DNA of 64,000 bases from Histomonas meleagridis (taxonomy: Eukaryota > Parabasalia > Tritrichomonadida > Dientamoebidae): the NCBI GenBank assembly GCA_020186115.1, contig WSYJ01000030.1, forward strand, positions 186,001 to 250,000. Direction: 5' to 3'. The notes beneath the pieces are model-generated. The model searched no databases and was not told where the DNA came from. It was given only the letters and a program-made list of their open reading frames with translations. The translations under genes were made by a program, and so were the position numbers. Shown here one piece after another: positions 4,001-62,135 of the stretch (positions are counted from its first letter, which is position 1; each line of letters opens with the position of its first letter).

Positions 4001-4478
4001 GAAGTGAGCCACCAGAAAGATATCCTGGAGTATCTAAGAAGTAAGATAAAGGAACATCAAATTTGATGTCAGATTTATAGTCAAGTTTTGTAAATGTTGC
4101 TGTTTCTTTCTTTGTTTTCGATGAATCTTCTGTATTTTTGATTTCGAGTTTTAAAGTGACTTTACCACTGTCTGAAATACCGTCAACAATTGTTTCGATA
4201 GTAAATAGTTCATCATCTGAAGTATTTAAATTAGCTGCGAGGTTAACTTGACACGGATCACATGTAAAGGCTTTTGTCACAGTCTCACCATTTTTTAACT
4301 GTGATTCGCTGATAGACCAACAGAACAAGCTGCACATTTTGAATGATACGGTTATTGTGGTGTCATTTTTAACTTCCGAAATATAATTTGCCAAACAAGA
4401 TTTATCCAGAAATTTTGTTTCAGATGTAAAGTAGTCATTTATTGACTTATAAGTTGATCGTGGCAAAATGTTTCCCAT
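1035..4478 (-). CDS. USP7/Ubp15-like ubiquitin-specific protease
   Basis: Predicted cysteine deubiquitinase of peptidase family C19, 1147 residues, closest in layout to USP7/HAUSP. The N-terminal ~170 residues are where USP7 carries a MATH domain; here they are too divergent to assign by eye. The Cys box GLKNQGCTCYLNS puts the catalytic Cys at about residue 234. QHDIHELC and the KGT...GQF segment are typical of USP7. The His box GNAFAGHYYSF gives His 476 and the following EFNDSDVS gives Asp 494, so the triad is intact. Residues after ~560 contain a charged EKEEKENRKK linker and then long beta-rich sequence matching the position of the USP7 C-terminal ubiquitin-like domains. It starts at an ATG 25 bp after an AT-rich leader. 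Acts on ubiquitin conjugates in nucleus or cytosol (family knowledge). Confidence 0.9.
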   Translation of the reverse strand: MGNILPRSTYKSINDYFTSETKFLDKSCLANYISEVKNDTTITVSFKMCSLFCWSISESQLKNGETVTKAFTCDPCQVNLAANLNTSDDELFTIETIVDGISDSGKVTLKLEIKNTEDSSKTKKETATFTKLDYKSDIKFDVPLSYFLDTPGYLSGGSLQINYTFKEDLSSDDDEIYENATFNADDDEIFQSPTTGPVYSYNTSYWKNYYKSSYKNNSKEETGYVGLKNQGCTCYLNSFLQSMFHLPAFRRIVYSFHTTGNEDPKTSIPLCLQRLFCQMQFSDEPCSTKALTKSFGWGDTEAFEQHDIHELCCVLLENIEKKLKGTELENSIAELFKGQFRSFIRCRNVKYESSRVEDFYDLQMTVKGCPNLQKSFENYTETEEFVGDNQYKTDEYGPQDADMGTEFISFPKILQLHLRRFDFDYNYMQQIKINDKFEFPKEIDLSEFLAEDSKGKPAVFELFGVLVHAGNAFAGHYYSFLRTKLDNQWYEFNDSDVSKTTEDKAISDNFGGEYENSKWSREKSYSAYILIYVRKDAEHEVYTEIPDETVPKHLKEYMEREKEEKENRKKLKEETKNQIPIEILDSNSIITNTSKYENGFEVEEQDSKHIIYVEKTSTISNLFPLVSEKMNIPLDKLVLWKCQYFGVPTSIISKTNNKLITTLGYSITLYAEEATDEFKELELNEINVWVKFFFPGHSSPLQYISEFRINETSKISEIFPQVNKAIGFPEDTALITFVETTTYPKLIDNDSTFYEQSISTGSILIFQQKLGEELLEPKIKFIEEIQTIKNENSLEQIIQKEEEYSKVPIITTCDTINLKELTVTQFLGSRNELLEILVSNVNEPNVPLFFLRFPSSSTFSDVKQFIAQNAHLDYSPLTDSIELYKENNEHPHKPSLYSTGLSYTSPNFLWSHNYLHGKLFHHVFFDLIKGISEKEIVNTNNLPIQFSSNGYKPDKLFHFRITKNSTIKKIKNSLIQNNKLKVGVKYRFIEEWNNKIYRVYSENDILYQSSSPLRIEIVPEDQLIINDDELLVKCCYAYKGDYYLNCFGYPFLVKLIPNENLLQLKNRINKYLEMNEDELNKFEFMIGDSYGSMSDLVMLNDEDVVINKCQKDYGIFLISKETKKSKKGKVYYGYGYRTKEKALKIEN

Positions 4479-5027
4479 AAATTCGAATTATTTGAAACAT
4501 TAAGCCTCCTTTAGGTTAAAGAGTATATAGCAAAGGTAACATTTTAATAAAAAACTCATGAAGAGAATAACACAATGAATAATATAAAAAAATAATTTAA
4601 TGTTTTCATAAATCTCAATTACTTATCATAAACCCATCATTTTTTGGTTCTTCTGATTTTTTTACAAATGAATGAATTAGGCATATAAGAAAATAACAAA
4701 CATATAAAATTAAAATTCCTAAATAAAGAGGTTATAAAAATGTAACGTTCTGTATTTTATAGAGCTTCTTCAGAATTATTAAGGAACAAGAGCTCTTTCT
4801 CCCAATAACATTCTTAATGTATAGAAAATTTCCTATGTCTTAGATGCCGAAATTTCAATTACAGGTCGTACACCCTAGAAAACATGACAAAACTAATGTT
4901 TTATATTAGAATTAAGTATCACGTAATAACACATAATTTTTTTATAAAATTAATTGTTTGAATATTATTTTAAAAAAATTGCAAAATATATATTTAAATT
5001 ACTCTATTAACATATTAATTTATTAAA
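4479..5027. other. intergenic region between two minus-strand genes
   Basis: About 550 bp holding the upstream region of the USP gene and the downstream region of the next gene. The USP leader lacks the AACCG motif common at other starts here. No coding or RNA feature recognised. Confidence 0.4.
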
Positions 5028-6548
5028 TTAAAAATATTCTGTATGTTCATATTCCAATTTCTTATACGCATCACTTTTTGTAAAATGTGTTTCATTTGTT
5101 TGGCACGTTGGTACGTATCCGCCGTTCATTCTATAATGGCAATACAATCCGATTACTTTATCTCCTTTATTGTTATCGGGTAATTTGGATAACTTTTCAT
5201 CGTTCATTTGATTTTTTTGGTCTTCTTGATATTGTTTTGTTAGGAACAATTTCCTCCGCGTTTTCGTTTTACATATCATTCTCGAAGAAACTGCTAACGC
5301 AACATCTTCTCCAAAGGCGAATGTATAAGGCCTTAATCTCGCCGCGAGTTTTGCGTGGAATGGTCTATACATTAAAGGCACTGCAACATGATCACATTCT
5401 TCACATTGTTTTACTTTCCCCATCCATTTCCCACAATTTATTCGCAAGTCGCGTAGACCAGCCATCCCAATTATGGTATCTTTATCGCGTATACGTTGGA
5501 CAAAACCTTTTTGTATTGCACCATTTAATGGCGCTTGGTCATCATCCCATCTCATTACGAAATCAACGGGAAAAAAACTCGAAACATAAAGCGGAAACAA
5601 AAATAATGGACTCCAATTATAGCCCCAGATGTGATACACTGGACGTGAAGCTCGTGAACGTATCAAGTTTAGATTTAGCTCAATGCGATTTTCACATTGA
5701 ACTAAACAATAAAATTCGGGTAAAAGTGATTGATTATTATAATCCCAAATGAAATCATAGATATAATCGCGTTTAAATTGAGGCAACAATAATGCAATTG
5801 TTGGATTTGAAGTATCATTAATATTGGCGCATTTTTGATAATGTGGAATAGATATTTCGGTAATGTAATCATAGTTTTGATTGAGTTTAATGCCATCAAA
5901 TAAATTATATGTATAATGAAAATCTTCATTTTTCTGATTTAAAAGTGATAATATTAATAGAGGTGGCATTGTAAATGAGTTTAAGTTCGTGTAGTACAAA
6001 AGTTCTCGTAATAAAGCTGAATTTATAACTGCAAGTCCAATCCCACAATCAATTCCTTGGTACTGAGTTTTTCCACCATAAACTATATCACTACCTGTTT
6101 CGGTAAGTATTGAAATGGAGTCTTCAAGCCATTTTGTGGGTGGCATGTATTTTATATTAGATGTATTGACAAAAAAAACAAAATCAGGCAGAGTAATGGA
6201 ATAAAGAGTGGCTGCTAAAGTAATGTACCCAAGATCTGGTAAGTCATTATAAGTGACTTTTTGAGTGTATTGATCTTTTGGTATAGAAGAATTACGTAGA
6301 GTTAAATAATAATCTTTTATGATATATTTATCATTATTGATGTCTTTGTACGTTTCAAGAGGTATTTGTTGCACCATTTCAACACCAATCGTTAAACTAT
6401 AATTTGATGAATTATGATTCTTCTTCTTTTTTGTATAAACAATCATAGGGTCTTTTGTTTTGGTTTTGAGGCAATTGATGGCACAAATTATAGTAACAAA
6501 AAATAATATTATTATATTAAAAATCCATATAATGTTCCCATTCTTCAT
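5028..6548 (-). CDS. type II membrane glycosyltransferase-like protein
   Basis: 506 residues. A short basic N-terminus is followed by one hydrophobic segment (about residues 5-25), then a long lumenal domain: the plan of a Golgi type II glycosyltransferase. The C-terminal half holds a DxD-like motif in MRWDDDQAP (about residue 340), a paired-Cys segment CGKWMGKVKQCEEC, and an acidic FGEDVALAVS motif about 80 residues later. This order is expected for a GT-A fold enzyme using a nucleotide sugar and a metal ion. I cannot name the family or substrate. Several N-x-S/T sites fit lumenal placement. The start ATG lies right after AACCGACAA, the promoter-proximal motif seen at many genes here. Confidence 0.6.
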   Translation of the reverse strand: MKNGNIIWIFNIIILFFVTIICAINCLKTKTKDPMIVYTKKKKNHNSSNYSLTIGVEMVQQIPLETYKDINNDKYIIKDYYLTLRNSSIPKDQYTQKVTYNDLPDLGYITLAATLYSITLPDFVFFVNTSNIKYMPPTKWLEDSISILTETGSDIVYGGKTQYQGIDCGIGLAVINSALLRELLYYTNLNSFTMPPLLILSLLNQKNEDFHYTYNLFDGIKLNQNYDYITEISIPHYQKCANINDTSNPTIALLLPQFKRDYIYDFIWDYNNQSLLPEFYCLVQCENRIELNLNLIRSRASRPVYHIWGYNWSPLFLFPLYVSSFFPVDFVMRWDDDQAPLNGAIQKGFVQRIRDKDTIIGMAGLRDLRINCGKWMGKVKQCEECDHVAVPLMYRPFHAKLAARLRPYTFAFGEDVALAVSSRMICKTKTRRKLFLTKQYQEDQKNQMNDEKLSKLPDNNKGDKVIGLYCHYRMNGGYVPTCQTNETHFTKSDAYKKLEYEHTEYF

Positions 6549-6886: not shown

Positions 6887-8116
6887 ATGTCCAACAAATC
6901 AACTCAACAATTACCAAATGAATTGGAAACATTAATAAAACTCAAAAATGTGATTTTTGGTTTGGACGCAAGTAATATTACTCGAACAACAAATTTCATA
7001 ATGAACAAATTTTGTCAAAATTATCCAATTTCTTTGAATACAATTTTATGTCAATTAATATACATATCATCTATGATAAAGAAAAATAACTTTGATGTAT
7101 ATTTGAACTTGTTAAAAGAAATCCAACAATATGAAGAAAATAATAAAAGTTCTTCAAAAATTTCAGATGTGTTTTCTCAATATCTTAATGACGAAAAAAC
7201 TATAAACGAATCATTCTATTTTCTTAATTGCATGATTGATTATAATTTACTTGAAGTAAAAACTATTCAAGATATGAAAAATCCATATTTTATACATTTA
7301 AATCCAAAAATAACCAAAAATTTATATGGTTGTTGGTTTAAACACGAGATTAAAATGCAAAACATTGAATATGAAGATTTGAAAAAGAATGATTGGGAAC
7401 TTCATAAACAATATATTAAAGAAGGACATAATCCAAATGAAATTGCGAAAATAATTCGAAATGATGAAATTGAAAAACTTCAAGAAATATCATCACAATC
7501 AAATTTTGATTATAATCAAACAATAAAACCATCACTTTATGAAAGATATTCATTCATTGATAAAGAAAATGTTACGTTAATTGATTATGCAGCATTCTTT
7601 TCTGCAGAAAAATGTTTTAAATATTTACTTATGAATGGATCAAATGCAATAAACACAGGTAAATATGCAATTGCAGGCGGAAATCTTGAGATAATTCATT
7701 TATGTGAACAAAATCATTCATCATTTGAAGATGCATATGAAACAGCAATTCAATATCATCGAAATGATATCTTTAAATATATTTATGAAAATAAAATTCT
7801 TGAAATCAATCGTTTAGATGAATTTGGGGTAAAATGCATTTCATGTCACAATTATGAAATATTCTTATTTTTATTAAAAGAAGGAATGAAAGTTAATAAT
7901 AATATTATTAATGAAGCAGCAACCCATGGAAATCTATTTCTTGTTAAATATTTCCTTAAAGAAAATCAACTTCCAAAATCTATTTTAAGTTTTTCAGCTA
8001 AATCAGGAAACATTGAACTTGTAAAATATATTTTGGAACAAAAAGAAATTGATATTAAACATAAAGATATCAATTTATTATATTTTATGTTTTTTCAGTT
8101 AATTTTTTGTTTCTAA
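6887..8116 (+). CDS. DUF3447/ankyrin protein, locus 1 (5' open frame)
   Basis: 409-codon ORF from ATG 6887. Residues 1-160 are a helical region shared in outline but not in sequence with the other family members. From about residue 180 a strongly conserved block follows (NEIAKIIRNDEIEKLQEISS..., SLYERYSFI, YAAFF.AEKCFKYLLMNG, YAIAGGNLEIIHLCEQNHSSF, then an IFKYIYE helix). This is the DUF3447/ankyrin region expanded in trichomonads. Further ankyrin-like helices follow up to KYILEQKEID. The ORF then reads into an AT-rich spacer and stops, although six further ankyrin cores follow to 9104. Ankyrin repeats mediate protein binding; no specific partner can be named. The true product may be longer (see the tail). 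Confidence 0.75.
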   Translation: MSNKSTQQLPNELETLIKLKNVIFGLDASNITRTTNFIMNKFCQNYPISLNTILCQLIYISSMIKKNNFDVYLNLLKEIQQYEENNKSSSKISDVFSQYLNDEKTINESFYFLNCMIDYNLLEVKTIQDMKNPYFIHLNPKITKNLYGCWFKHEIKMQNIEYEDLKKNDWELHKQYIKEGHNPNEIAKIIRNDEIEKLQEISSQSNFDYNQTIKPSLYERYSFIDKENVTLIDYAAFFSAEKCFKYLLMNGSNAINTGKYAIAGGNLEIIHLCEQNHSSFEDAYETAIQYHRNDIFKYIYENKILEINRLDEFGVKCISCHNYEIFLFLLKEGMKVNNNIINEAATHGNLFLVKYFLKENQLPKSILSFSAKSGNIELVKYILEQKEIDIKHKDINLLYFMFFQLIFCF

Positions 8117-9104
8117 AAAATATCTTAAAATTGTTTAATTTATTTGTATTTATTTTCGTGATTTTATGTCTTAAAATAATATTTGGAAAAGCACTTATTA
8201 TGGCATCTGAATATAATAAAATAGAAATAGTTAAATTACTTCTTGAACAAAAAGGAATTGATATTAATATTCAAACTATATATTTATATTATTTCGTGTT
8301 TATTTTAATTATCATTATGATATTTCGAAATAATATTTAGAATTTTTTTATATTATTTGATTCAGCTCTTTTTCGAGCGTCTAATGGTGGTCACACAGAA
8401 ATTGTTAAATTACTTCTTGAACAAAAAGGAATTGATATTAATGTTAAACGTGTTTTTTTGTTTTGGATGTCATTTAATAATTTGATATTTCAAAACAATA
8501 TTTGGTAATTATTTATATTATTTTGGACAGCACTTATAGGTGCATCTTTAAATGGTGAATCTAAAATAGTTAAATTACTTCTTGAACAAAAAGGAATTGA
8601 TATTAATGCTAAAGATATTTATTTGTTTTATTTAATATTTCTTTAAATAATTTGATATTTCAAAATAATAATTGGAAATTATTTAAATTATTTTGGACAG
8701 CACTTATATGTGCATCTTTAAATGGTCATACAGAAATAGTTAAATTACTTCTTGGACAAAAAGGAATTGATATTAATGCTAAAGATATTTATTTGTTTTA
8801 TTTAATATTTCTTTAAATAATTTAATATTTAAAAAAAACATTTGGAAATTATTTAAATCATTTGAAACTGGACTTATGTATGCATCTATGATGGGCCATC
8901 TAGAAATAGTTAAATTACTCCTTGAACAAAAAGGAATTGATGTTAATGCGATTGATATTTATTTGTTTTATTTAATGTTTATTTTAATAATTTGATATTT
9001 CAAAACAATATTTGGAATTTCTTTGAGTTGTTTGAAACTGCATTTGCCAAAGCAACTAAAAAAGGGCATGAAGAAATTGCTACATTAATTGCTTCCAAAA
9101 AATG
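8117..9104 (+). repeat. split ankyrin-repeat tail of locus 1
   Basis: Six 30-codon ankyrin cores start at 8188, 8362, 8527, 8697, 8867 and 9037; the last three steps are exactly 170 bp. Each core reads like TALMxASxxGHTEIVKLLL then EQKGIDINAKD and has no stop. The intervening spacers of about 80 bp carry stops in several frames, for example CTTTAAATAATTTGA. The last core is different (TAFAKATKKGHEEIATLIA then SKK) and ends in its own TGA at 9102-9104, as a real C-terminus would. The first spacer is longer and looks like two spacers fused after loss of a core. Confidence 0.8.
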
Positions 9105-9318
9105 AATATCTTACACACGGTTTTTTCTATAAAAACCATATTCATACTTTTATTTTTCAAAAAAAAATTATTAGCATGAATAAATTCTAAAATATGGATA
9201 CATCTCTCACTTGGAAAGGGATCGTTACGATCGAAATTTATTGAAAAAGTTTTAAGGCATGACATTTGACAAAAAGTGACATCAGACCAAACTCCTTTAT
9301 CAAACCGCCGCTATATAA

Positions 9319-13832: not shown

Positions 13833-14046
13833 AATTTATATTAAAAAAATTGATCGATTTTATTCATGTTTTAATTATTCACAGATTTTCAACATGTTCA
13901 CTTTTAGAAATATTTGTAATGTTTAAATCATAAATCTTATTTTAACATGTTAATTTAATATTATCGCTAAAAGTACGTTATAATGGTCAGGACAGAAAAT
14001 TTTCAATCAATATTTAGTCAGACTTTTGGAAAAATTGAACAAAAAA

Positions 14047-15282
14047 ATGGATGAAAATGGATGGGAAACACTGCAATCAGTTCAAAGATTTATATTTAAT
14101 ATAAGCAAGGAAGCTCCTTCTCAAGGAGAACAATTAATCACTGATATATGTAATGATAAATATAAATGCTCTTTAAATCTTATTATCTTTCAAATGATTT
14201 ATACATGTTTTTTAAGTTCGGGAAATAAATTTGATTTGCATATTAATTTCTTAAATAAACTTAATTTAATTGAAGGAAATAAGGAAGAAAACATATTAAA
14301 AAATTTCATTCATTTTCTTCTCCGTAAATACAAACAAAAATCAAATTATCTTATCGAGTATATAATTAATGAAAAATTGATAGAGTCAAAAACCATTAAG
14401 AATATGAAAACTTTATACTTTGCGCATCACTTTTCAAAGGAAGAATTTAATAAGGATATTTTACCATATTGTAAAGATGAAAACATTGATGAACTTTCGA
14501 AGAATGATTGGGAACTTCATAAGAAATTAATTAAAGAAGGACATAGTCCAAATGAAATTGCAAAAATAATTCGAAATGATGAAATCGAAAAACTTCAAGA
14601 AATATCATCACAATCAAATTTTGATTTTAATCAAACAATAAAACCATCACTTTATGAAAGATATTCATTTATTAATCAAAAAAGTGTTACATTAATTGAT
14701 TATGCAGCATTCTTTTCTGCAGAAAAATGTTTTAAATATTTACTTATGAATGGAGCAAATGCAATAAACACAGGTAAATATGCAATTGCAGGCGGAAATC
14801 TTGAGATAATTCATTTATGTGAACAAAATCATTCATCATTTGAAGATGCATGTGAAACAGCTATTAAATATCATCGAAATAATATCTTTCAATATATTTA
14901 TGAAAGCAAAATGGAAAATCTTAATAATATTGAATTAGGAAAGAAATGCATAATATATCATAATTATGAAATATTTACTTTTTTGCAAGAAAAAGGTATG
15001 AAAATCAGCAATTCAATCATTAATGAAGCAGCACGCAATGGAAACATATTTCTAGTTAAACATTTTCTTAAAAATAACAAAATTCCAAATGATATTTTAA
15101 TTTATTCAACAGAATCAGGAAACATTGAACTTGTCGAATATGCTTTGCAACAGGGAACAATTGATCGTGCTAAAAATATATTTTTAGTTTATTTAATATA
15201 TATTTTATTAATTTTATGTTTCAAAATGAAATATGGAAATTATTCAAAACATTTCAAACAGTTCTTATCATCGCATCTTTAA
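14047..15282 (+). CDS. DUF3447/ankyrin protein, locus 2 (5' open frame)
   Basis: Starts at ATG 14047 (MDENGWETLQSV); an upstream TTG frame is ignored. About 411 residues. The N-terminal ~150 residues are unlike locus 1, then the same conserved block appears (NEIAKIIRNDEIEKLQEISS through YAIAGGNLEIIHLCEQNHSS). The DNA of this block is nearly identical to loci 1 and 3, which suggests gene conversion or recent copying. The ORF ends out of frame inside the first spacer: its last residues come from reading the next ankyrin core in a wrong frame. Function unknown beyond probable protein binding. Confidence 0.75.
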   Translation: MDENGWETLQSVQRFIFNISKEAPSQGEQLITDICNDKYKCSLNLIIFQMIYTCFLSSGNKFDLHINFLNKLNLIEGNKEENILKNFIHFLLRKYKQKSNYLIEYIINEKLIESKTIKNMKTLYFAHHFSKEEFNKDILPYCKDENIDELSKNDWELHKKLIKEGHSPNEIAKIIRNDEIEKLQEISSQSNFDFNQTIKPSLYERYSFINQKSVTLIDYAAFFSAEKCFKYLLMNGANAINTGKYAIAGGNLEIIHLCEQNHSSFEDACETAIKYHRNNIFQYIYESKMENLNNIELGKKCIIYHNYEIFTFLQEKGMKISNSIINEAARNGNIFLVKHFLKNNKIPNDILIYSTESGNIELVEYALQQGTIDRAKNIFLVYLIYILLILCFKMKYGNYSKHFKQFLSSHL

Positions 15283-15841
15283 TGGGTTACAAAGATATAG
15301 TAAAATTACTTCTTGAACAAAAAAGTATTAATATTAACATTAACGATAAAGATATCTTTTTGCTTTATTTAGTATTTATTCCAATGATTTGGAACTACAA
15401 AATAATATTTGGAAATTATTTGAATTATTTCAAACAGCTCTTATGAAAGCTTCTTCTAATAATCACATAAAAATAGTAAAATTACTTCTCGAACAAAATG
15501 GAATTAATATTAATATTCAAGATATTTTTTTTGGTTTATTTATTGTTTATTTTAATAATTTTTTATTTCAAAATAATATTTGGAATTTTTAAAATATATT
15601 TTTCACAGCACTAATTCTTGCATCACAAAAAGGAAATATTGAAGTAGTTAAATTACTTCTCGAACAAAAGGGAATTAAAATAAATGCTAAAGATAATTTT
15701 TATTTAAATAAAATATAATTTTATAATATTATTTGGAAATTATTTAAATTATATAGAACAGCACTCAAAATTGCAGCTGAAAATTCTCATACTGAAGTTG
15801 TTAATTTCATTCAAGAAAAATCACCATGTGTATGTTATTAA
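15258..15841 (+). repeat. split ankyrin-repeat tail of locus 2
   Basis: Four cores start at 15258, 15434, 15605 and 15758. All four are open in their own frames and clearly diverged from one another (e.g. ASLMGYKDIVKLLL, ASSNNHIKIVKLLL, ASQKGNIEVVKLLL). The last core has a distinct end (VVNFIQEKSPCVCY) and stops with TAA at 15839-15841. The final spacer contains no GT dinucleotide at all, which excludes a GT-AG intron there. Confidence 0.8.
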
Positions 15842-16034
15842 AAAATATCAATCATTAATTATAATTATATATATTTCAAACTGTTGAGTATTCCATATAC
15901 ACAAAATTTTAATTGAAGTGTTTCACATAAAATTAGTAAGCGAAGCATTTACTTGGAGCAGAATGTTTCCTGTTCTGCATTGAGCACTTTTTGTAAGCCA
16001 ATCAAAACGAGAAGAGCATTTTTGAGAAGCTCTG

Positions 16035-16045
16035 TTTGGCCTTTC
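16035..16045 (+). promoter_or_regulatory. ribosomal-protein promoter motif TTTGGCCTTTC
   Basis: Sits 10 bp before the eS19 ATG. The same 11-mer (one variable base) lies 5 bp before uS4 and 10 bp before eL42, and I saw it at no other start in the window. Confidence 0.55.
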
Positions 16046-16055
16046 CTTTTTCCAA

Positions 16056-16502
16056 ATGATTGGAGCTGGCACAGGCAAAGCCGTTAATGTTCGCGATGTT
16101 GCTGCTAATGAATTTATCGAAACACTTTCAAAATTTTTCGAAACAAACCATCTTATTGAAGCACCAAAATGGGCTGATTTGGTCAAAACTGGTCATCTCA
16201 AGCAAATGCCACCCTGCTTAATGAACTGGTGGTACACACGTGCTGCTTCTGTTGCTCGCACTGTTTACCTCCACCCAGGCACCAGCGTTCAATATCTCCG
16301 TAATAAGTTTGGTGGAAATAAGAACTATGGTTCTGCTCCAAGACACTTTGCTCAAGCTAGTGGTAAAGTTGTCCGCACCATGCTCAAGCAATTAGAAGAA
16401 ATTGGCTATGTCAAGAAGGATGAGAAAGGAGGCAGAGTAATCACACCAAAAGGCCAAAAGCAACTTGACCTCATTGCTAAAGAAGTTCATTCCAAACAAT
16501 AA
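16056..16502 (+). CDS. RPS19: 40S ribosomal protein eS19
   Basis: 148 residues, normal length for eS19. The start (GKAVNVRDVAANEFIETLS) and the core PPCLMNWWYTRAASVARTVYL, followed by GTSVQYLRNKFGG, are diagnostic. A typical GGRVITPKGQKQLD C-terminus follows. It is a component of the small-subunit head needed for late 18S rRNA maturation in other eukaryotes. The ATG follows the shared motif TTTGGCCTTTC by 10 bp, so the 5' leader must be very short. The stop is TAA followed by A (TAAA). Confidence 0.97.
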   Translation: MIGAGTGKAVNVRDVAANEFIETLSKFFETNHLIEAPKWADLVKTGHLKQMPPCLMNWWYTRAASVARTVYLHPGTSVQYLRNKFGGNKNYGSAPRHFAQASGKVVRTMLKQLEEIGYVKKDEKGGRVITPKGQKQLDLIAKEVHSKQ

Positions 16503-16917
16503 ACAATCGCATATGACAATTATTTATTCTAATATTTTGAAATTGATTTCTTTTACTTTTTTATATTTTTGCTAGATCATTAACAAAACATTTTTTTTAA
16601 TGTATAGTCCTTATTATAGTTATCATTTACTAGGGGAAACTTCATGATAAAAATTGATTTAAATTTTGAGAAATCATTTCTAACTAAATTGAACTTTGAG
16701 ACATCATTTCTATAATTTTGCAAAATACCCACGTGCATTATTTTTGAAACAACATGTTGGATAGACATAATATCTTATAGATATACTATATTATTAAATT
16801 TTTTCGGTATGAAAGATGAAAGTTTTTAAAACTTGTAGCCCCAACGTTAAACATTAGAAATTGACATATAAGATTTTTTGAAGATCATTTCCATAGCATG
16901 GAATACGTTAAGAATAA
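16503..16917. other. intergenic region, eS19 to TVP23
   Basis: 415 bp of AT-rich DNA. CAACGTT near 16848 and TACGTTAAG just before the TVP23 ATG are the only GC-containing motifs that stand out. No gene seen. Confidence 0.4.
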
Positions 16918-17592
16918 ATGAATTCAGACAAAGAAAGCACACAACAAGAAGATAATCAAGTCCTCTTGGAAGGTGCAGTAAATGATAAAACCACTGGGAT
17001 ACATAGCAAATACCTTTTTTTAATAACAAAATCAATATCATTTCTCATTTATTTGTTATCAATTATTTTAAATTTTCATCCATTGATCACAATTTTCCTC
17101 AACTTACTAGTTGGGTTTATTGATTTTTGGCTTTGTAAAAATGAATTTGGCTTAAAATTGGTTGGATTACAATGGTATTTAGATTCAGGAACCAATGGAA
17201 ATTCTAAATGGGTATTTTACTCTAGACCTGATCCATACATTCCAGATCCAGTTGATGTTAACATTTTCTGGGGCTGCTTGTATTCCTTCACATTTTTATG
17301 GTTATTATTAATTATTTTGACTCTTGTTTCACGAAAATATTCCGGTTCTGTAGCATCGTTACTGCTTTTTGTAATCAACATATTTAATGTAATATGCTTC
17401 AAAAGGTGCGAAATTGTTCAATCTCACCAAGCTGATGAAGTTGCGCGGACAATTATGCTTGGTGATGAATTTTCGAGCGACAAACTTGATCTGGAGGAAG
17501 AAGTAGCCGAAGCGATACCAGAAATAGAAGCTTCAGAGGAAGAACAGAAGATCAAACTCAAATTACCAGAGCAAAATTCAAAAGAGGACTAA
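16918..17592 (+). CDS. TVP23/FAM18 family Golgi membrane protein
   Basis: 224 residues. Four hydrophobic segments (about residues 35-50, 55-75, 120-140 and 145-160) flank the family core DFWLCKNEFGLKLVGLQWY and the SKWVFYSRPD motif. These match the DFW.KN..GR.LVGLRWW and WVFES segments of TVP23. The family acts at the late Golgi and trans-Golgi network in vesicle traffic, with Yip proteins and t-SNAREs in yeast. The C-terminal ~50 residues are acidic (EEEVAEAIPEIEASEEEQ) and predicted cytosolic; that tail is longer and more acidic than usual. Confidence 0.88.
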   Translation: MNSDKESTQQEDNQVLLEGAVNDKTTGIHSKYLFLITKSISFLIYLLSIILNFHPLITIFLNLLVGFIDFWLCKNEFGLKLVGLQWYLDSGTNGNSKWVFYSRPDPYIPDPVDVNIFWGCLYSFTFLWLLLIILTLVSRKYSGSVASLLLFVINIFNVICFKRCEIVQSHQADEVARTIMLGDEFSSDKLDLEEEVAEAIPEIEASEEEQKIKLKLPEQNSKED

Positions 17593-18464
17593 ATTTCTTT
17601 TTATTAAACATAATACAATACCTAAAAATTTTAATTAAAATTAATTTCCATCTCAACACGCATAATATTCAAACAAGATTTATATATTTTCAAAATGACT
17701 TTCTTTGGACGTATACATAATGGCGGGTGTCTTGATTATGTGGGTGTGGAATTTTTATGCATTTTATAAACAACAAATTTGTTAATTCTTTTCACGAAGA
17801 AGAGTTTCCAAAAGAAATATCATAATACGAACCATGCAGGGCGAATTCATTGAATGATGAAGAAGTCATCACAAACTCAGATTATCTTGTAGAAAAGAAC
17901 CAAAATGAGTGCAGTTAGTTGGGATTTTTCTCAATCATCTCAGCCAGGCTATGTTACGTAAACGTTTACAGAAAGCCAATCTCAAATCAATGAAGATATT
18001 GAAGAAAAGAATCAGATTGGGGCCATCTCTTTTTTATTTTTGAATGTGGATATATAACACGCTAAAGGAATTAAGAATGTACATTCTTTATGCTAATTTA
18101 GCAACGTCAACCAAAAAAAATGGCGACTTTTTGAATACTTTTGATCGGTAAGTGAGCTTGAACAAATGTCTTGTACAAAAATCGGAGTTAATAAAACATT
18201 ATTCGTTGTACTTCAATAATTACATTAATATTAATATTATATATAAAATTAAAGCAAATTTGACAAAATATTTAAAATATCATGAAATTAATTTGATGCT
18301 CATCTTGGAAAACATCATCTACATAACTACAACACAATGGTTAACCGAATCCCCTCACTTATTATTGGTATATAAAAAAATATAAATAGCGCATTATAAT
18401 TTCTTTGATTTTTTGAGCATAAATTATGTTCAGTTAAAAATAAAATTTATACGCAGAGGTTTTT
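17593..18464. other. intergenic region with small relic ORFs
   Basis: About 870 bp between TVP23 and the end of ankyrin locus 3. It contains the broken ORF at 17905-18057 and a very short ORF at about 17695-17770. An AT-rich open frame at 18152-18385 has no ATG at its 5' end and no family resemblance, so I do not call it. Confidence 0.4.
17905..18057 (+). pseudogene. small broken ORF, origin unknown
   Basis: From ATG 17905 the frame reads MSAVSWDFSQSSQPGYVT, hits TAA at 17959-17961, then continues open for about 31 codons (TFTESQSQINEDIEEKNQ...) to TAA at 18055-18057. The composition is protein-like (Ser/Gln/acidic, then hydrophobic), unlike the AT-rich surroundings, which suggests the 5' end of a decayed gene. 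I do not recognise the family. Confidence 0.3.
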
Positions 18465-19603
18465 TTACTCTGTAACTCCTTTTTCTTTGAGTAATTTTAC
18501 TATTTCTGTATGACCATTATAAAATGCTTTCGAATAAGCAGTTTGAAATAATAAAAATAATTTCCAAACATTAAATAAAAATATCAAATTGTTAAAATAT
18601 ATAATAAATAAAATAAATTGATATCTTCAGCAATTAAATCAATTCCTTCTTGTTCAAGAAGTAATTTAAATATATCTACGAAACCAAACCAAGTAGCAAT
18701 CATAAGTGCTGTATTAAATATTTAAAATAATTTCCAAATATTATTTTGAAATATGAAATTATTAATATAAATATCAAATAAAACAAATAAATATCTTTAG
18801 CATTAATATCAATTCCTTTTTGTTCAAGAAGTAAATTAACTATTTCAGTATATCCTTTTTCAGATGCAATCATAAGTGCTGTTTGAAATAATTTAAATAA
18901 TTTCCAAATATTATTTTGAAATTTCGAATTATTGAAAATTATATCAAATAAAACAAATAAATATCTTTAGCATTAATATCAATTCCTTTTTGTTCAAGAA
19001 GTAATTTAACTATTTCTGTATGACCGTTTTTAGATGCAAACATAAGTGCTGTTTCAAATAATTTGTATAAATTTCAAATAATATTTTGAAAAGTGCAAGT
19101 AAAATAAAACAAATAAATATCTTTATCATTAACATCAATTCCTTTTTGTTGAAGAAGTAATTGAACTATTTCAGTATATCCTTTTTCAGATGCAAACATA
19201 AGTGCTGTTTCAAATATTTTGAACAATTTCCAAATAATATTTTGAAAAGTGCAAGTAAAATAAAACAAATAAATATTTTTAGCATTAATATCAATTCCTT
19301 TTTGCTCAAGAAGTAATTTAACGACTTCAGTATGACCATTTTCAGATGCTTTCATAAGTGCTGTATAAAATATGTTAAACAATTTTTAAATTATATTTTG
19401 AAATAAAAAATTTTTAAAACAAATTTTAAACAAAATATAAAAAAGTTTTTATCATTTATTTTAATTTCTTTTTGCTCGAGAAGTATTTTAACCATTTCTA
19501 TAAATCCAATTTGTGATGCCCAAATAAGTGGTGTATCAAAATTTTTAAATAATTTTCAAATAAAAAATTTTTAACATTAAATTTATCAAATAAAGTTTAA
19601 ATG
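18465..19603 (-). repeat. split ankyrin-repeat tail of locus 3
   Basis: On the minus strand, seven ankyrin cores follow the 5' ORF. They are separated by AT-rich spacers, some read through in frame (19382-19074 reads two cores) and others containing stops. All cores translated by eye are open; variants include TPLIWASQIGFIEMVKILL and TALMIATWFGFVDIFKLLL. The last core (TAYSKAFYNGHTEIVKLLK then EKGVTE) ends in its own TAA at 18465-18467, followed by AA. Confidence 0.78.
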
Positions 19604-20647
19604 TTATATTAGATTATTTCTAGAATTGAAATCTATTTCATTTTTCTTCAAGAAAAAGTTAAATATCTTAAAATTAATGATTATATTTGAAAACAAAAAA
19701 AGATTAGTAACAAATATGTATTCAACAATTTTGTTTTCATAAATATATTTAAAGATATCATTTCGATGATATTGAATTGCTGTTTCATATGCATCTTCAA
19801 ATGATGAATGATTTTGTTCACATAAATGAATTATCTCAAGATTTCCACCTGCAATTGCATATTTACCTGTGTTTATTGCATTTGCTCCATTCATAAGTAA
19901 ATATTTAAAACATTTTTCTGCAGAAAAGAATGCTGCATAATCAATTAATGTAACACTTTTTTGATTAATAAATGAATATCTTTCATAAAGTGATGGTTTT
20001 ATTGTTTGATTAAAATCAAAATTTGATTGTGATGATATTTCTTGAAGTTTTTCGATTTCATCATTTCGAATTATTTTTGCTATTTCATTTGGATTTACTC
20101 CTTCATGAATTAACTTCTTGTGAAGTTCCCATTCATTCTTTTTTAAATCTTCATTGTCTTTTTTAAAGTCATCAAAAAATGAAGAGTTAAGGACGTTCAT
20201 TAAACTAAGTAATTCTTCTAATGGAATATAATTTGCGAAATATGGCGTCTTTTGTTTATTTTCAACTAAATTTGATGGAATTAAATTCATTTCAATCATT
20301 CCAGCAAGAAGATAATATGATTCTTGTGAATCCAATCTAAGAATAGAATGCGCAAATATATTAAATAAATCATCATTATTATTATTTTTGGATTCAATTT
20401 CTTTCATAAAACGAAAATATATTTCAAAATCTGTTTTTTGTGAAACAAATGATGAATATATAAATCTGCTTAAAATTTTGTAGGGACAAATTGATATATC
20501 AGTTTTAAAAAGATCCATAGTTGCTTTAACAGAATCGTTAATATTCTTCACGTTTAAGTTTAAAACAATTTCTTCAAGTTTTTCTAATGCTTGTAAGAAG
20601 CTTTTTGAAGAATTCCCAAGGAATTTCGTAATTTTTCTATCAAGCAT
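19604..20647 (-). CDS. DUF3447/ankyrin protein, locus 3 (5' open frame)
   Basis: 347-codon ORF starting at ATG 20647 (MLDRKITKFLGNSS). The unique N-terminal ~165 residues resemble the other copies only in pattern (SxxSQKTDFEIYFRFMKEIE). The conserved NEIAKIIRNDEIEKLQEISS to IFKYIYENK block follows, with DNA nearly identical to loci 1 and 2. The ORF then leaves the family consensus and ends about 50 codons earlier than its paralogs, so the LFLVKYFL-type ankyrin region after the block is missing or broken. Cores resume downstream in other frames. Confidence 0.7.
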   Translation of the reverse strand: MLDRKITKFLGNSSKSFLQALEKLEEIVLNLNVKNINDSVKATMDLFKTDISICPYKILSRFIYSSFVSQKTDFEIYFRFMKEIESKNNNNDDLFNIFAHSILRLDSQESYYLLAGMIEMNLIPSNLVENKQKTPYFANYIPLEELLSLMNVLNSSFFDDFKKDNEDLKKNEWELHKKLIHEGVNPNEIAKIIRNDEIEKLQEISSQSNFDFNQTIKPSLYERYSFINQKSVTLIDYAAFFSAEKCFKYLLMNGANAINTGKYAIAGGNLEIIHLCEQNHSSFEDAYETAIQYHRNDIFKYIYENKIVEYIFVTNLFLFSNIIINFKIFNFFLKKNEIDFNSRNNLI

Positions 20648-34516: not shown

Positions 34517-34632
34517 TCTTATGAATACATTTTTTGGTTGAGCATTTACTAATTCAATTTAAATTCGACCATTTAAAGTATTGAAATTATAAAGTTCAAA
34601 GTTCATCGGTTTTGGCATTTTTTGGTAAAGCA

Positions 34633-36399
34633 ATGGCATGTTCCAAAATGTTTGTTGAATGCGAAATATTCGAACCTCTTCTTAGCGTACAGACCGCCCT
34701 TCAAGATTTAACTTCTTCTACGCTTGATTATTCAATTTTTTTGATATCTGACTTCATTTCTAAACATCCAGGAAACGAACTAGATGTTATTCGTTCAATA
34801 TACAAGATATCAGAGACCAAGTACCACGAAATAGAGCAATTTGTCGAACTTGTTAAACAACTTCATCTAGAAGATCTTATTTGTCGAAATTTATTTTATG
34901 GTTTTTCTCAACATGCACTTTATTTTATTCAAGCTCTTATTCATTCCGGAATTGTAAGCCAATCTATTTATGACAAAGAACTTAAGAATCCAAATAAAAA
35001 TTATCCAGAAATTTACAATCAAAAATTTCACCAAAAGGATGATTCCCATATAACACAAGTTTTATCTTCAATTATTGACAAAGATGATTCTGATTCACTT
35101 CAAGAATATTTATCATCGCCATCAATCTCTATTAACTATGAATTTCCATCTATGCCACATCTAAACAATGTCACAAGTCCAATCAAATGGCAAGTAAGTC
35201 TTATAAATTATTCTGCATATCGTGGCATGTCAAAATGCTTTAAATTTCTTTTACTTAATGGGGCCAAACTTATCACCGATGGCACCTTAACGTCAATGAC
35301 ATATGCAGTTTATGGCGGTAATCTCGAAATCATACATATTCTCGAATCGCAAATTAAGATTCATCCCGAAGATATTTGTGGTGCAATTTATAACCATCAC
35401 AGAGAAGTATTTGACTGGATAATAACTAATTTAGATTGCGATGGAATAAGTAAAAAAATTGTTAACGTCTGTCTCCAAAGTGATTTTCTTTATGGACTTA
35501 CGAAAGTTCAAACAGAAGTTTCGATTGATGAAATATTTTATTCACTTGTAAAGCAAAATAACATTGAGTTTATGAAAGTACTTCTTAAAAATCATGGAAA
35601 TGAAATCACACATATTCGAACTGTTAAAGGTTACAACACAAAAATGAGCACTGTTTGTTATAGTGGGAACGTTGATATGTTTAAACTTTTATATGAACAT
35701 TATTCAGATCAAATCGATATCGACTTAATTTTCGACTCCGTAATTAAATCGCAAAATCTCGATTTTATAAAGTATTTTGTTAATGAGTTCCATCCTAATA
35801 TGTCAGCAAAAGGAACTCAAGGTTATACTCCTATATTAAGGGCATGTGAATTAAATGATTTTGATATCTTTGAGTATCTTTCTCAACAAAATGGTGTTGA
35901 TTATACAATCACGAATGATTATGGTATGAATTGTCTTTTTTTGTGTTGTAAAAATGGTAACTTTGAGATTTTTAAGAAATTAATGGAAATTCCAAGTATT
36001 GATATTAATAAAGAAACATGTGATGGCTTTACTGAAATAAATCCTTTGGGATGTGCAATGGAGAACAATAGAATAGAATTTGTAAAAATAATTTTAAATG
36101 ATCCAAGAATAATCCCTAATATAAGAACTTGGTATAATGCACAACATTTTAATTTTAAAAATAGTCATTTTGCAATTGCTTTACGATGTGAATCGCAAGA
36201 AATAATGGAATTGTTATTAAAACATCCTAAAATGAAAATAACTTTGGATGAAAAGAATATGGTGTTAAAAAGTTATCCGAAAATATCAAAAGAAATCATA
36301 GATAATGTAAAAATTCGAAATGTCGATAATTATGACTTATTGGATTATTGTTATAATGAGGAAGAAGGTCCTCCTTTAATAGATATGGAAAACGAATAA
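34633..36399 (+). CDS. intact DUF3447/ankyrin-repeat protein
   Basis: 588 residues from ATG 34633; an upstream in-frame TTG is not used. N-terminal helical region, a DUF3447-like part (about residues 190-260: LINYSAYRGMSKCFKFLLLN, then YAVYGGNLEIIHILESQ), then ordinary uninterrupted ankyrin repeats to the end. In those repeats the normal turn is kept, for example GTQGYTPILRACELNDFDIF and NDYGMNCLFLCCKNGNFEIF. Unlike the six split loci it has no AT-rich spacers, which makes it the useful comparison. It faces HSP70 across 129 bp, with CGGTTTTGGCAT 12-25 bp before the ATG. Confidence 0.85.
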   Translation: MACSKMFVECEIFEPLLSVQTALQDLTSSTLDYSIFLISDFISKHPGNELDVIRSIYKISETKYHEIEQFVELVKQLHLEDLICRNLFYGFSQHALYFIQALIHSGIVSQSIYDKELKNPNKNYPEIYNQKFHQKDDSHITQVLSSIIDKDDSDSLQEYLSSPSISINYEFPSMPHLNNVTSPIKWQVSLINYSAYRGMSKCFKFLLLNGAKLITDGTLTSMTYAVYGGNLEIIHILESQIKIHPEDICGAIYNHHREVFDWIITNLDCDGISKKIVNVCLQSDFLYGLTKVQTEVSIDEIFYSLVKQNNIEFMKVLLKNHGNEITHIRTVKGYNTKMSTVCYSGNVDMFKLLYEHYSDQIDIDLIFDSVIKSQNLDFIKYFVNEFHPNMSAKGTQGYTPILRACELNDFDIFEYLSQQNGVDYTITNDYGMNCLFLCCKNGNFEIFKKLMEIPSIDINKETCDGFTEINPLGCAMENNRIEFVKIILNDPRIIPNIRTWYNAQHFNFKNSHFAIALRCESQEIMELLLKHPKMKITLDEKNMVLKSYPKISKEIIDNVKIRNVDNYDLLDYCYNEEEGPPLIDMENE

Positions 36400-37004: not shown

Positions 37005-37767
37005 TTATTTATTAATTTTTTGATTATCTGCTATAGCAGATTCAATATTAAATCTTTTTAATAAATTTCAAAAATTATTATGAAACATCAAATTATTGTA
37101 ACAATTTTTATATATAACAAATAAATATCTATTGAAGTGGCATCAATTCCTTCATGCTCAAGAAGTAGTTTTACTATATCTCTGTGATCATAGAATGCTG
37201 CTTTCATAAGTGCTGTATAAAATTGTATAAATAATTTCCAAATATTATATTTAAATAAAAAATCATTAAAACAAATTTTATATAAAATAAACAAACATCT
37301 TTAGCATTGACATCAATTTCTTTTTGTTTAAGAAGTAATTTTACAATTTCTGTGTTACCTTTATAAGATGCATAAAATAATGCGTTCCAAAATATATTAC
37401 ACAATTTCCAAACATTAAATAAAAATTTTTAATTATTTCAAAAAACTTTAATTAAAATAAAAAAATATCAACATCATTGATATTAATTTCCTTATTATCA
37501 AGAAGCAATTTAACTATATCTATATTTTTTTCATAAGATGCCATCATGAGTGCTGTTTTAAATAATTTAAATGATTTCCAAATATTATTTTTAAATAGAA
37601 AATTTCAAAAATAAATTCTAAATAAAACAAAGAAATATTTTTAGCATTAACATCAATTCCTCCTTGTTTAAGAAGTAATTTAACTATTTCTTTATGGCTA
37701 TTTTCAGATGCACTCATAAGTGCTGTTCTAAATTTTGTGAATAATTTCCAAACATCATTTAAAAATA
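37005..37767 (-). repeat. split ankyrin-repeat tail of locus 4
   Basis: Core starts on the minus strand recur at exact 170-bp steps (the AGTGCTGT/equivalent signature at 37719, 37549, 37379 and 37209), then one step of about 176 bp. The four full cores are open (e.g. TALMKAAFYDHRDIVKLLLE). The last one is short (SAIADNQKINK) and ends with TAA at 37005-37007. Spacers contain stops. Unlike the other loci the terminal core is truncated. Confidence 0.75.
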
Positions 37768-38964
37768 TTATAAAATCGTAAAAATAAACATCAAATAAAA
37801 CAAATAAAAATCTTTAGAATTAATATCAACTCCATCTTGCTTCAAAACATATTTAACAAGTTCAATATTTCCTGATTCTGAGGCAAAAACGATTATGTTT
37901 GTTGGGATTTGATTATATTCAAGAAAGTGTCTTGTTAGAAACAAATTTCCAATTTTTGCTGTTTCATTTATAACAAATTTATCAATTTTCATTCCTTCTT
38001 CTTCCAAAAACAAAAGAATTTCATAATTACTATTATTGACACAAAAATAAAACAAATTTTCGTTTAATTTCTCTAATTTATTTTCATAAATGTATTTAAA
38101 GATATCATTTTGATGAAACTTAATTGCAGTTTCATATGCGCTTTTGAAAGATGAATGATTTTGTTCACAAAAATGAATTATCTCTAAATTTCCACCTGCA
38201 ATTGCATATTTGCCTGCATTAAATGTATTTGCTCCATTCATAAGTAAATATTTAAAACATTTAACTGATCCAAAAAATGCTGCATATTTAATTAAAGAGA
38301 TAACTTTCTGATTAATGAATGAACATCTTTCATAAAGTGATGGTTTTATTGTTTGATTAAAATCAAAATCACTTTGTGATGATATTTCTTGAAGTTTTTC
38401 GATTTCATCATTTCGAATTATTTTTGCAATTTCATTTGGATTATGTCCTTCTTTAACATATTTCTTATGTAGTTCCCAATCATTCTTTTTCAAATCTTCA
38501 TAGTTTTTGATAAAATAATTGTAAAATAGATTGTTGGAATACTTATCTTTGTTTTCTTCTTTTGTATCATAATGTACAAAATATAATAATTTAAAATTTT
38601 CGATAATATTTATATCAATTAAATTATTTTCAAGCATTTTATTAATGATATAATATGTTTCTTGTGTATTAATTTTACGTATATAATCTAAAAATATTTC
38701 AATGATTTTTGGATAATTTTTATCGAGTTCTTCTTCTTTTGTTTGAATTATTTTCAAATAATCCAAATATATATTATCTATATTCTTTTGTGAGTAAAAC
38801 ACACAGTATATCAAACTACTTAGTAGAAGATTAAATGAATATGGATAATTTGAATCAAATAATTTCATGGTTTGCTGAATTGAAGAATCAAAATATTCCT
38901 CCTTTAAATTAAATATAACGTGATAAAGTGTCTTAAGTATATCCATGTAATTTGATTGAAACAT
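37768..38964 (-). CDS. DUF3447/ankyrin protein, locus 4 (5' open frame)
   Basis: 398-codon ORF from ATG 38964 (MFQSNYMDILKTLYHVIFNL). N-terminal half unique, sharing the TMKLFDSNYPYSFNLLL pattern with locus 6. The conserved block follows, but with clear substitutions versus loci 1-3 (FGSVKCFKYLLMNGANTFNAG, IIHFCEQNHSSFKSA). Ankyrin helices continue to KYVLKQDGVDINSKD, then the frame runs into a spacer and stops. The tail continues to 37005. Confidence 0.75.
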   Translation of the reverse strand: MFQSNYMDILKTLYHVIFNLKEEYFDSSIQQTMKLFDSNYPYSFNLLLSSLIYCVFYSQKNIDNIYLDYLKIIQTKEEELDKNYPKIIEIFLDYIRKINTQETYYIINKMLENNLIDINIIENFKLLYFVHYDTKEENKDKYSNNLFYNYFIKNYEDLKKNDWELHKKYVKEGHNPNEIAKIIRNDEIEKLQEISSQSDFDFNQTIKPSLYERCSFINQKVISLIKYAAFFGSVKCFKYLLMNGANTFNAGKYAIAGGNLEIIHFCEQNHSSFKSAYETAIKFHQNDIFKYIYENKLEKLNENLFYFCVNNSNYEILLFLEEEGMKIDKFVINETAKIGNLFLTRHFLEYNQIPTNIIVFASESGNIELVKYVLKQDGVDINSKDFYLFYLMFIFTIL

Positions 38965-42022: not shown

Positions 42023-42070
42023 TCGAATGGTTCAATTTTAAAAACGGTTTTTTACCGTCAAATATCAAAA
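42023..42070. promoter_or_regulatory. 48-bp bidirectional promoter with ACGGT/ACCGT inverted repeat
   Basis: The whole gap between two divergent ATGs is 48 bp. It contains a perfect inverted repeat, ACGGT-TTTTT-ACCGT (42044-42058), made of two copies of the CGGTT/AACCG-type motif facing opposite ways. Confidence 0.5.
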
Positions 42071-61783: not shown

Positions 61784-62135
61784 AATATGATTGACACTTT
61801 TATATGAACGCAAAAAGTTCTAATTGAGATAAAATTAGCAAATGCCCACAAGAAAAATGGGGCACTCCATACCAAACTCGCCTTAAAATTAAAAATGGTT
61901 GCATGATTTTTTTTAGAAATATCATTTTTCTAAAGGGCCGTTGCAATTCAGAATATGCCATCCTTTACATCCAAGTTCTGTTTATGGGGTTCTTCGCCAA
62001 AAATAAGCGTCGTTGAAAATTTGAAAGTACTCATTCAAAATATTGTTTGATTTACTTGTGCGACAGAAAAAAACAATAAACACTTTGTAAAAATAATGAA
62101 CATTTAACCAAAAAAAAGACTTTTATGAAGTGAAA

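Follow-up and report, generated by a model that had tools for sequence, protein, structure and literature searches.

Fixed-length 17-nucleotide A+T-rich elements between single codons of Histomonas meleagridis ankyrin arrays: candidate ultra-short intron-like sequences

An interrupted ankyrin gene and its relatives

The locus described here lies in a 64,000-nucleotide stretch of Histomonas meleagridis DNA (the window, C24:186001-250000). It begins with an ORF of 409 residues (6887-8116) that matches Ank_2 (1.8e-10) and DUF3447 (1.1e-09) in Pfam and runs out within the first spacer. At 8188-9105 (locus 1) it is followed by six ankyrin cores, all open, whose starts lie 174, 165, 170, 170 and 170 bp apart, the final four recurring at exactly 170 bp. 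The spacers between them break the frame: read on from the upstream core, TAA occurs in the spacers 3' of the cores at 8527 and 8697 and TGA in the one 3' of the core at 8867, and the earlier units with listed stops measure 209, 174 and 165 bp. The last core reads TAFAKATKKGHEEIATLIASKK and has its own end and stop (Table 1). A sequence-only reading of the locus had pointed to the open cores between out-of-frame, stop-bearing spacers, to the exact 170-bp recurrence and to the separate terminus of the last core, and we see all of these. It had also expected blocks of about 80 nt to be missing from the mRNA; the spacers are not homogeneous, and four 17-nt elements alternate there with single codons.

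The cores have the helix-loop-helix signature of ankyrin repeats, TAL...NG...VKLLLE...GIDIN. An insert of 96 nt in the first spacer, starting GTTTTTTCAG, does not parse into 17-nt elements; it is possibly a longer element or one of greater age.

The window contains five further arrays of the locus 1 type (Table 1), so the pattern does not arise by chance; the six arrays (W1-W6, W1 being locus 1) are all counted in the unit statistics below. Pfam Ank, Ank_2 and Ank_4 match five window ORFs, and the cores were found by HMM. Another ankyrin ORF in the window, of 595 residues at 34612-36399 (+), is open along its whole length, so the 17-nt elements seem not to be universal to ankyrin genes.

Searching the 43.28-Mb genome with the N-terminal ORF of locus 1 listed 105 matches including the query itself, with 104 scored of 3342 candidates. 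By eye-count, 91 of the 105 matches listed have no internal stop, and in ten N-terminal relatives that we checked (from 30 fetched and longer copies) no frame break was seen. The arrays are homogeneous, at 81% within locus 1 and 84-91% for the listed genome matches excluding the query, and some are long: 33 and 37 cores were detected in single runs at L060 (C86:191400-197200) and L061 (C36:312500-318700), respectively. At L047 a second array (4186-5748) carries a different element sequence, ATATGTTTTAATAATTT, which is still 17 nt long, and GAT codons are repeated between its elements.

Table 1. Features of locus 1 and of the related arrays in the window (window coordinates).
Feature	Position	Strand	Details
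N-terminal DUF3447/ankyrin ORF	6887-8068	+	Frame continues to TAA 8114-8116 inside the first spacer
Final core of N-terminal ORF	7979-8065	+	Followed by D1 codon GAT 8066-8068
First interrupted hairpin	8069-8187	+	17-nt element 8069-8085; TAT 8086-8088; insert 8089-8184; G4 GGA 8185-8187
Ankyrin core 1	8188-8274	+	KALIMASEYNKIEIVKLLLEQKGIDINIQ; open
Interrupted hairpin 2	8275-8361	+	17-nt elements 8278-8294, 8322-8338, 8342-8358; codons ACT, CGT, GAT, AGA, GAT; 21-nt element 8298-8318 by manual reading (21 nt called codons by the parser)
Ankyrin core 2	8362-8448	+	Open
Interrupted hairpin 3	8449-8526	+	17-nt elements 8467-8483, 8487-8503, 8507-8523; codons CGT, TGG, GAT, GGT, TGG; 12-nt remnant 8452-8463 by manual reading (12 nt called codons by the parser)
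Ankyrin core 3	8527-8613	+	Open
Interrupted hairpin 4, canonical	8614-8696	+	Elements 8617-8633, 8637-8653, 8657-8673, 8677-8693; codons GAT 8614-8616, AAT 8634-8636, GAT 8654-8656, GGA 8674-8676, TGG 8694-8696 (D-N-D-G-W)
Ankyrin core 4	8697-8783	+	Open
Interrupted hairpin 5, canonical	8784-8866	+	Elements 8787-8803, 8807-8823, 8827-8843, 8847-8863; D-N-N-G-E
Ankyrin core 5	8867-8953	+	Open
Interrupted hairpin 6, canonical	8954-9036	+	Elements 8957-8973, 8977-8993, 8997-9013, 9017-9033; D-N-D-G-E
Last core (capping repeat)	9037-9105	+	Ends after helix 2; own stop TGA 9103-9105
N-terminal ankyrin ORF, then cores and 17-nt elements	14026-15585	+	
N-terminal ankyrin ORF, then cores and 17-nt elements	18544-20647	-	
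N-terminal ankyrin ORF, then cores and 17-nt elements	37204-38964	-	
N-terminal ankyrin ORF, then cores and 17-nt elements	41978-45537	+	
N-terminal ankyrin ORF, then cores and 17-nt elements	59193-61813	-	

Seventeen-nucleotide elements separate single hairpin codons

We sampled 43 loci of this H. meleagridis genome and obtained 367 core-to-core units, 247 of them 170 bp long, 66 of 153 bp and the remainder between 130 and 209 bp. Core matches of 8 bits or less were dropped, as were units from cores matched only past model position 15, spacings outside 120-260, L003 (which overlaps L045), L001, and those among L006-L035 that repeat the window or L036-L055.

Along the 170-bp unit the most variable triplets start at core columns 12 and 21, which are surface codons, and at spacer columns 107, 127 and 167. 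The last three belong to a series at exact 20-nt steps, columns 87, 107, 127, 147 and 167, and the five codons of this series read D/N/G/S, then N/K/D/E/R, Y/D/N/G, Gly (GGA) and N/E/K/Y/W, before T-A-L. Canonical ankyrin hairpins have the consensus D-x-x-G-x-T, and the hairpin matches it only once the 17-nt elements are skipped. The plan of the unit is then D1-[17]-x2-[17]-x3-[17]-G4-[17]-x5-T6-A7-L8: the first position is D, N, G or S in 227 of 233 distinct units and the fourth is Gly in 203 of 233, with x2, x3 and x5 hypervariable. The arithmetic fits both common unit lengths: added to 34 codons (102 nt), four elements of 17 nt make 170 bp and three make 153 bp.

The elements have the consensus sequences ATTTATTTGTTTTATTT, ATTTATTTTAATAATTT, ATTTCAAAATAATATTT and AATTATTTAAATTATTT, from first to fourth. 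They are 95% A+T (4.9% G+C), with 16-62% G+C in the hairpin codons and 28% in the cores, and they share the pattern A[T/A]TT...ATTT, with A first in 93% and ATTT last. A parser that reads each unit as any mix of sense codons and elements returned the order codon-E-codon-E-codon-E-codon-E-codon in 237 of 367 units and, in 63 more, the same order with the first element missing. Each of the 367 parsed hairpins carries two or more inserted elements. Of the 311 units whose hairpin has five codons, 245 have 17 nt in slot 1, three have 18 nt and 63 have nothing there; slots 2, 3 and 4 hold 17 nt in 310, 305 and 310. Overall the parser found 1360 elements, a total confirmed by a per-unit tally, and gave 1322 of them a length of exactly 17 nt; this share is an upper estimate, because 17-nt elements served as its training set and any other length incurs a penalty. 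A few dozen units parse poorly, including the first spacers of locus 1 and several in L005, L010, W5 and L063. Within the elements, positions 15, 3, 11 and 2 change least and positions 5, 9 and 12 change most, so parts of both ends are constrained. Their length seems to be constrained too, and reading frame cannot account for this.

Codon-level selection acts on cores and stranded codons, not on the elements

Identical units were collapsed to leave 233 distinct 170-bp and 56 distinct 153-bp units for the stop counts. Expected values take alignment columns as independent and ignore shared ancestry; they are only approximate because the units are related and recombining, and the main contrasts far exceed that uncertainty. 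The cores of the 170-bp units hold 1 stop where 116.9 are expected, and the spacer frames 0, 1 and 2 hold 152, 999 and 77 against 167.0, 1002.9 and 101.1, the lower third-frame count being due in part to the hairpin codons inside the spacer. Across the whole sample 362 of the 367 cores are free of in-frame stops. The 153-bp units provide a control in which the spacer is in frame and read-through would be possible; here the cores hold 1 stop against 26.0 expected and the spacers 28 against 35.3, with a stop in the in-frame spacer of 25 of the 56.

Nearest-neighbour comparisons guard better against shared ancestry, with the units still non-independent. In 49 disjoint nearest-neighbour pairs of 170-bp units, omega was 0.40 in the core frame and 1.47 and 1.54 in the other two frames; in the spacers of the same pairs it was 0.94-1.20. 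(The path-averaged core stop count of this test, 15.3 versus 36.5, includes intermediate steps.) The signal is weaker among rare alleles, at a ratio of about 0.64 of expectation, with 77 nonsynonymous core alleles against 78.6 expected and 45 synonymous ones against 29.4. A parsimony tree gave 46 core stop gains against 69.7 expected, and 44 against 72.6 and 73 against 109.4 in two spacer frames; it was set aside for the nearest-neighbour tests, having placed many stops in ancestral cores, probably through recombination between units.

Cores also stay open along the arrays, in 163 of 163 cases at positions 1-4 and in 17 of 18 beyond the 24th, and only 13 of 424 core matches show a net change of length, several of these being end cores. 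By eye-count, 19 of 47 listed array ends look like short capping cores, for instance those ending in GHEEIATLIASKK or SHTEVVNFIQEKSPCVCY directly before the stop; the others are a full core, a short odd core or the edge of the fetched stretch. The open cores, omega and the capping ends together indicate that the downstream cores are most likely part of a protein. Stops and frameshifts are not spread equally over cores and spacers, as they would be in a pseudogene or a neutral array. Recent amplification without selection, which had been put forward as the alternative, is disfavoured by a core-frame omega of 0.40 versus about 1.5 and by the open cores beyond the 24th position. By these tests, the cores are under codon-level selection and the 17-nt elements are coding-like in no frame.

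What of the codons stranded between the elements? At x2, x3 and x5, 335 nearest-neighbour changes include 1 stop against 31.2 expected; x2 alone has 0 in 102 changes and x3 has 1 in 103, each against 9.5. This resembles the six variable core codons used for comparison, where 468 changes include 0 stops against 36.0 expected. Sliding the x2, x3 and x5 triplets by +1, +2 and -1 gave 3, 6 and 58 stops (10.9, 14.0 and 23.0 expected), and triplets inside the elements at three offsets gave 44, 32 and 42 (69.1, 32.2 and 60.5 expected). The stop deficit in some of these controls probably comes from uneven site rates, and stops are nearly absent only at the stranded codons, which on this evidence are under codon-level selection themselves. 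Per site, nearest neighbours differ about 2.5 to 3.5 times as often at x2, x3 and x5 as they do at core third positions. The hypervariable surface codons (columns 12-14, 21-23, 107-109, 127-129 and 167-169) suggest diversifying selection or an exchange of codons between repeats.

Abundance in the genome

An exact 24-mer across G4 and the fourth element, present in 91 of the 367 sampled units, has 1250 copies genome-wide, and its reversed control has none. Similarly, a core 21-mer followed by GCACTTAT marks 1395 junctions in the genome with gaps of 84-114 nt and 117 in the fetched loci. Hairpins with zero or one element would leave gaps of 33-63 nt, and for these the anchor pair gave 0 junctions in the genome and 0 in the fetched loci, two-element junctions falling outside both ranges. 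From the 91 of 367 units, and from the 117 junctions in fetched loci with 367 units, we extrapolate to about 4,400-5,000 units and, at a mean of 3.7 elements per unit, to roughly 16,000-19,000 elements. These totals are rough because the fetched loci were picked by similarity and are a biased sample. In the window outside the arrays, none of 95 element-like sites would join two ORFs of at least 40 codons upon removal of 17 nt.

How might the elements be skipped?

To explain these results we propose, with somewhat more confidence than doubt, that the locus is one multi-repeat ankyrin gene from whose RNA the 17-nt A+T blocks are excised as ultra-short intron-like sequences. Since a normal protein repeat reappears once they are skipped, the cell probably cuts the elements out. 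They would leave the transcript before translation, and the flanking codons, once joined, would encode a normal 34-residue ankyrin solenoid ending in the capping core at 9037-9105. The predicted message would lose 68 nt per 170-bp repeat, and the predicted junction peptide would read ...AK-D-x-x-G-x-TAL.... Of the earlier suggestion that the cores are selected and the spacers skipped, the selection stands, on omega and the open cores, the spacers seem to be missing from the protein, and the unit of removal has to be redrawn as four 17-nt blocks: a single block of about 80 nt joining INAKD to TALM is contradicted by the codons D1, x2, x3, G4 and x5, which are kept between the four blocks.

The machinery would have to recognise a short fixed-length A[T/A]TT...ATTT sequence instead of GT-AG, and it could be a derived spliceosome or something else. 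In fact, 62 of the 367 units have no GT anywhere in the spacer. Conventional GT-AG introns in the spacer were considered and rejected, GT being found in only 23 of 66 153-bp units and the recurrent GT of the 170-bp unit in about 81%. A 3' end at the AG of the conserved ACAG was rejected too, since these letters belong to Thr-Ala codons and copies with the synonymous ACT and ACG occur. Against excision, exons of one codon flanked by 17-nt introns would be an extreme case for a spliceosome. Also counting against it are the missing GT-AG, the negative search for conserved RNA structure, the absence of comparable joins between long ORFs elsewhere in the window, the poorly parsed units, the milder stop deficits in the triplet controls and in spacer frame 2, and the weaker signal among rare alleles. 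Separately, a U6 snRNA candidate with an ACAGAGA box lies at about positions 1501-1608 of L059 (C36:377228-377335) and scores 43.7 bits, just below the Rfam cut-off of 44.

More tentatively, and with doubt on balance the stronger, we envision an undescribed RNA excision system that would recognise ~17-nt A[T/A]TT...ATTT blocks by their length and ends, without GT-AG and despite their separation by single codons, at 16,000-19,000 sites in one hypervariable ankyrin family. The blocks may double as recombination anchors for swapping single surface codons between repeats. In our search of open-licence papers other than bioRxiv preprints, we found no description of these elements.

Alternatively, the elements could stay in the mRNA, with the ribosome skipping each 17-nt block. 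Bypassing and splicing give the same selection pattern, and selection tests do not part them because stops within a skipped block are harmless either way; moreover, blocks of nucleotides inserted between codons resemble the elements of Magnusiomyces (excerpts of PMC5009743). However, translational bypassing would need three to four successive skips per repeat, with one codon decoded between each; for the longest array, with its 37 cores and a mean of 3.7 elements per unit, this comes to more than 100. It also finds no conserved RNA structure to lean on: the mean MFE z was -0.38 (40 of 218 sequences), neither the alignment nor its column-shuffled controls folded into a structure, and the column pairs with the strongest covariation form no helices. 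Take-off and landing codons do not match either, since the elements end in TTT and the codons before them are RRT, variable or GGA; exceptions to such a match exist in Magnusiomyces (PMC5009743, in excerpt). We consider bypassing unlikely.

To the same degree, we doubt that the arrays are silent cassettes or pseudo-repeats of recent amplification, with a gene that ends at 8116 and untranslated arrays that are open through recency or through copying from an expressed, element-free gene. The arrays are indeed strongly homogenised, and the N-terminal ORF of locus 1 does end in the first spacer. Such untranslated arrays, however, fit poorly with an omega of 0.40 between nearest neighbours, set against a neutral-looking 0.94-1.20 in the spacers of those units, with cores that remain open along the arrays, with the apparent capping cores and stops at 19 of 47 listed ends and with selection on the codons isolated between elements. 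Nor did exact anchors, with a sensitivity of 201/367 and 115/367 on known units, find an element-free donor junction in the genome.

A further possibility is that the whole interval from D1 to x5, about 68-71 nt, is a single non-GT-AG intron whose inner codons are vestigial. The summed spacer does behave largely as non-coding sequence. The inner codons, though, shun stops (x2 0 in 102 changes, x3 1 in 103) and are hypervariable between conserved flanks, Gly is kept at position 4 amid 4.9% G+C, and individual 17-nt elements are missing from some units in which the neighbouring codons are retained. We replaced this single intron by 4 x 17 nt on seeing that triplets 107-109 and 127-129 shun stops and vary nearly as much as surface codons, and we now regard it as quite improbable.

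Removal could instead act on DNA in a particular nucleus or at some life stage, as happens to the internal eliminated sequences of ciliates; the elements are short, AT-rich, of fixed length and wholly missing in some copies. Internal eliminated sequences have TA at both boundaries, but the boundaries here are not uniformly TA: the elements end in TTT, and the second to fourth elements each adjoin the third base of the codon before them, a variable one or GGA. We know of no nuclear dimorphism in parabasalids, and give DNA-level removal very little weight. The weakest candidate, programmed -1 frameshifting in each repeat (170 + 1 = 171, with a U-UUA-AAU heptamer near the spacer end), can point to a spacer open in the downstream frame in 126 of 180 170-bp units and in the upstream frame in 88 of 180, but we give it next to no credence: upstream-frame stops occur at the neutral rate and downstream-frame ones at three quarters of that rate, 25 of 56 in-frame 153-bp units contain stops, and frameshifting cannot account for a codon signature at 20-nt steps.

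What excision would mean

The assembly of a virulent H. meleagridis strain, of 43.4 Mb and 28.66% GC, is reported with 573 introns, at most one per gene (excerpts of PMC8529796). If the elements are excised, this poultry parasite would have, against those 573, a new type of ultra-short intervening sequence in numbers of about ten thousand or above, together with exons that are one codon long. A transcriptome of H. meleagridis is deposited under PRJNA935845 (excerpts of PMC10063853); aligners commonly disregard introns shorter than about 20 nt by default, and gaps of 17 nt would then appear as deletions or be lost. Such sites would test how small introns and exons can be and whether GT-AG is needed. 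The gene models of the hypervariable ankyrin family would need rewriting, and the ORFs of about 400 residues would become the starts of long solenoids; in the arrays that we examined, as many as 37 cores were detected.

Comparison with known systems

Like other ankyrin-DUF3447 proteins (PF12796/PF11929), the members of this family have the cores, the D-x-x-G-x-T-A-L hairpin, capping repeats and variable surface positions, and unlike them they have at least two inserted elements in all 367 parsed hairpins.

Skipped blocks between codons are also found in Magnusiomyces capitatus mitochondria and in phage T4 gene 60, where non-coding content is passed over in a comparable way; those bypass systems are mitochondrial or phage, whereas here the gene is nuclear, the codon match is absent and the length is fixed at 17 nt (PMC5009743, from excerpts). 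Closer in phylogeny are the type B introns of Trichomonas vaginalis and T. stableri, of 23-28 nt with a T-rich interior, and thus also very short and in the same phylum. T. vaginalis, whose genome is intron-poor, has 63 GT-AG introns in which branch site and 3' motif are fused, and our elements have no GT-AG (excerpts of PMC12316389). The trichomonad type A 12-mer ACTAACACACAG has 3 matches in the genome versus 2 for the reversed control; it is not enriched and is absent from the element logos.

In mikrocytids, which are also parasites, introns are of uniform length and conserved sequence, with 16 bp in 217 of 224 and 17 bp in 7, but those 224 introns are distributed over 179 genes, in contrast to 3-4 elements per 34 codons here, and the excerpted text does not describe single-codon exons (PMC10245619). 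Mouse Ncam is cited as having an exon of 3 nt (excerpts of PMC8042270), so that exons of one codon are as small as known microexons get. The tiny spliceosomal introns of Stentor coeruleus, 15 nt long in 8173 of 8806 and 16 nt in the others, are likewise of fixed length, A+U-rich and present in many thousands, yet they are mostly GU...AG, whereas ours are A[T/A]TT...ATTT, 95% A+T, and spaced by single codons in one gene family (PMC9505925, in excerpt). In length, the elements fall in the narrow 15-17-nt range of ultra-short introns (1322 of 1360 at 17 nt, with a parser biased to 17). The excision route proposed here probably matches none of the intron types compared. We would provisionally class the elements as working like ultra-short introns, and place them outside the GT-AG class because the tiny introns compared, where their ends are given, are mostly or all GT-AG and these are not.
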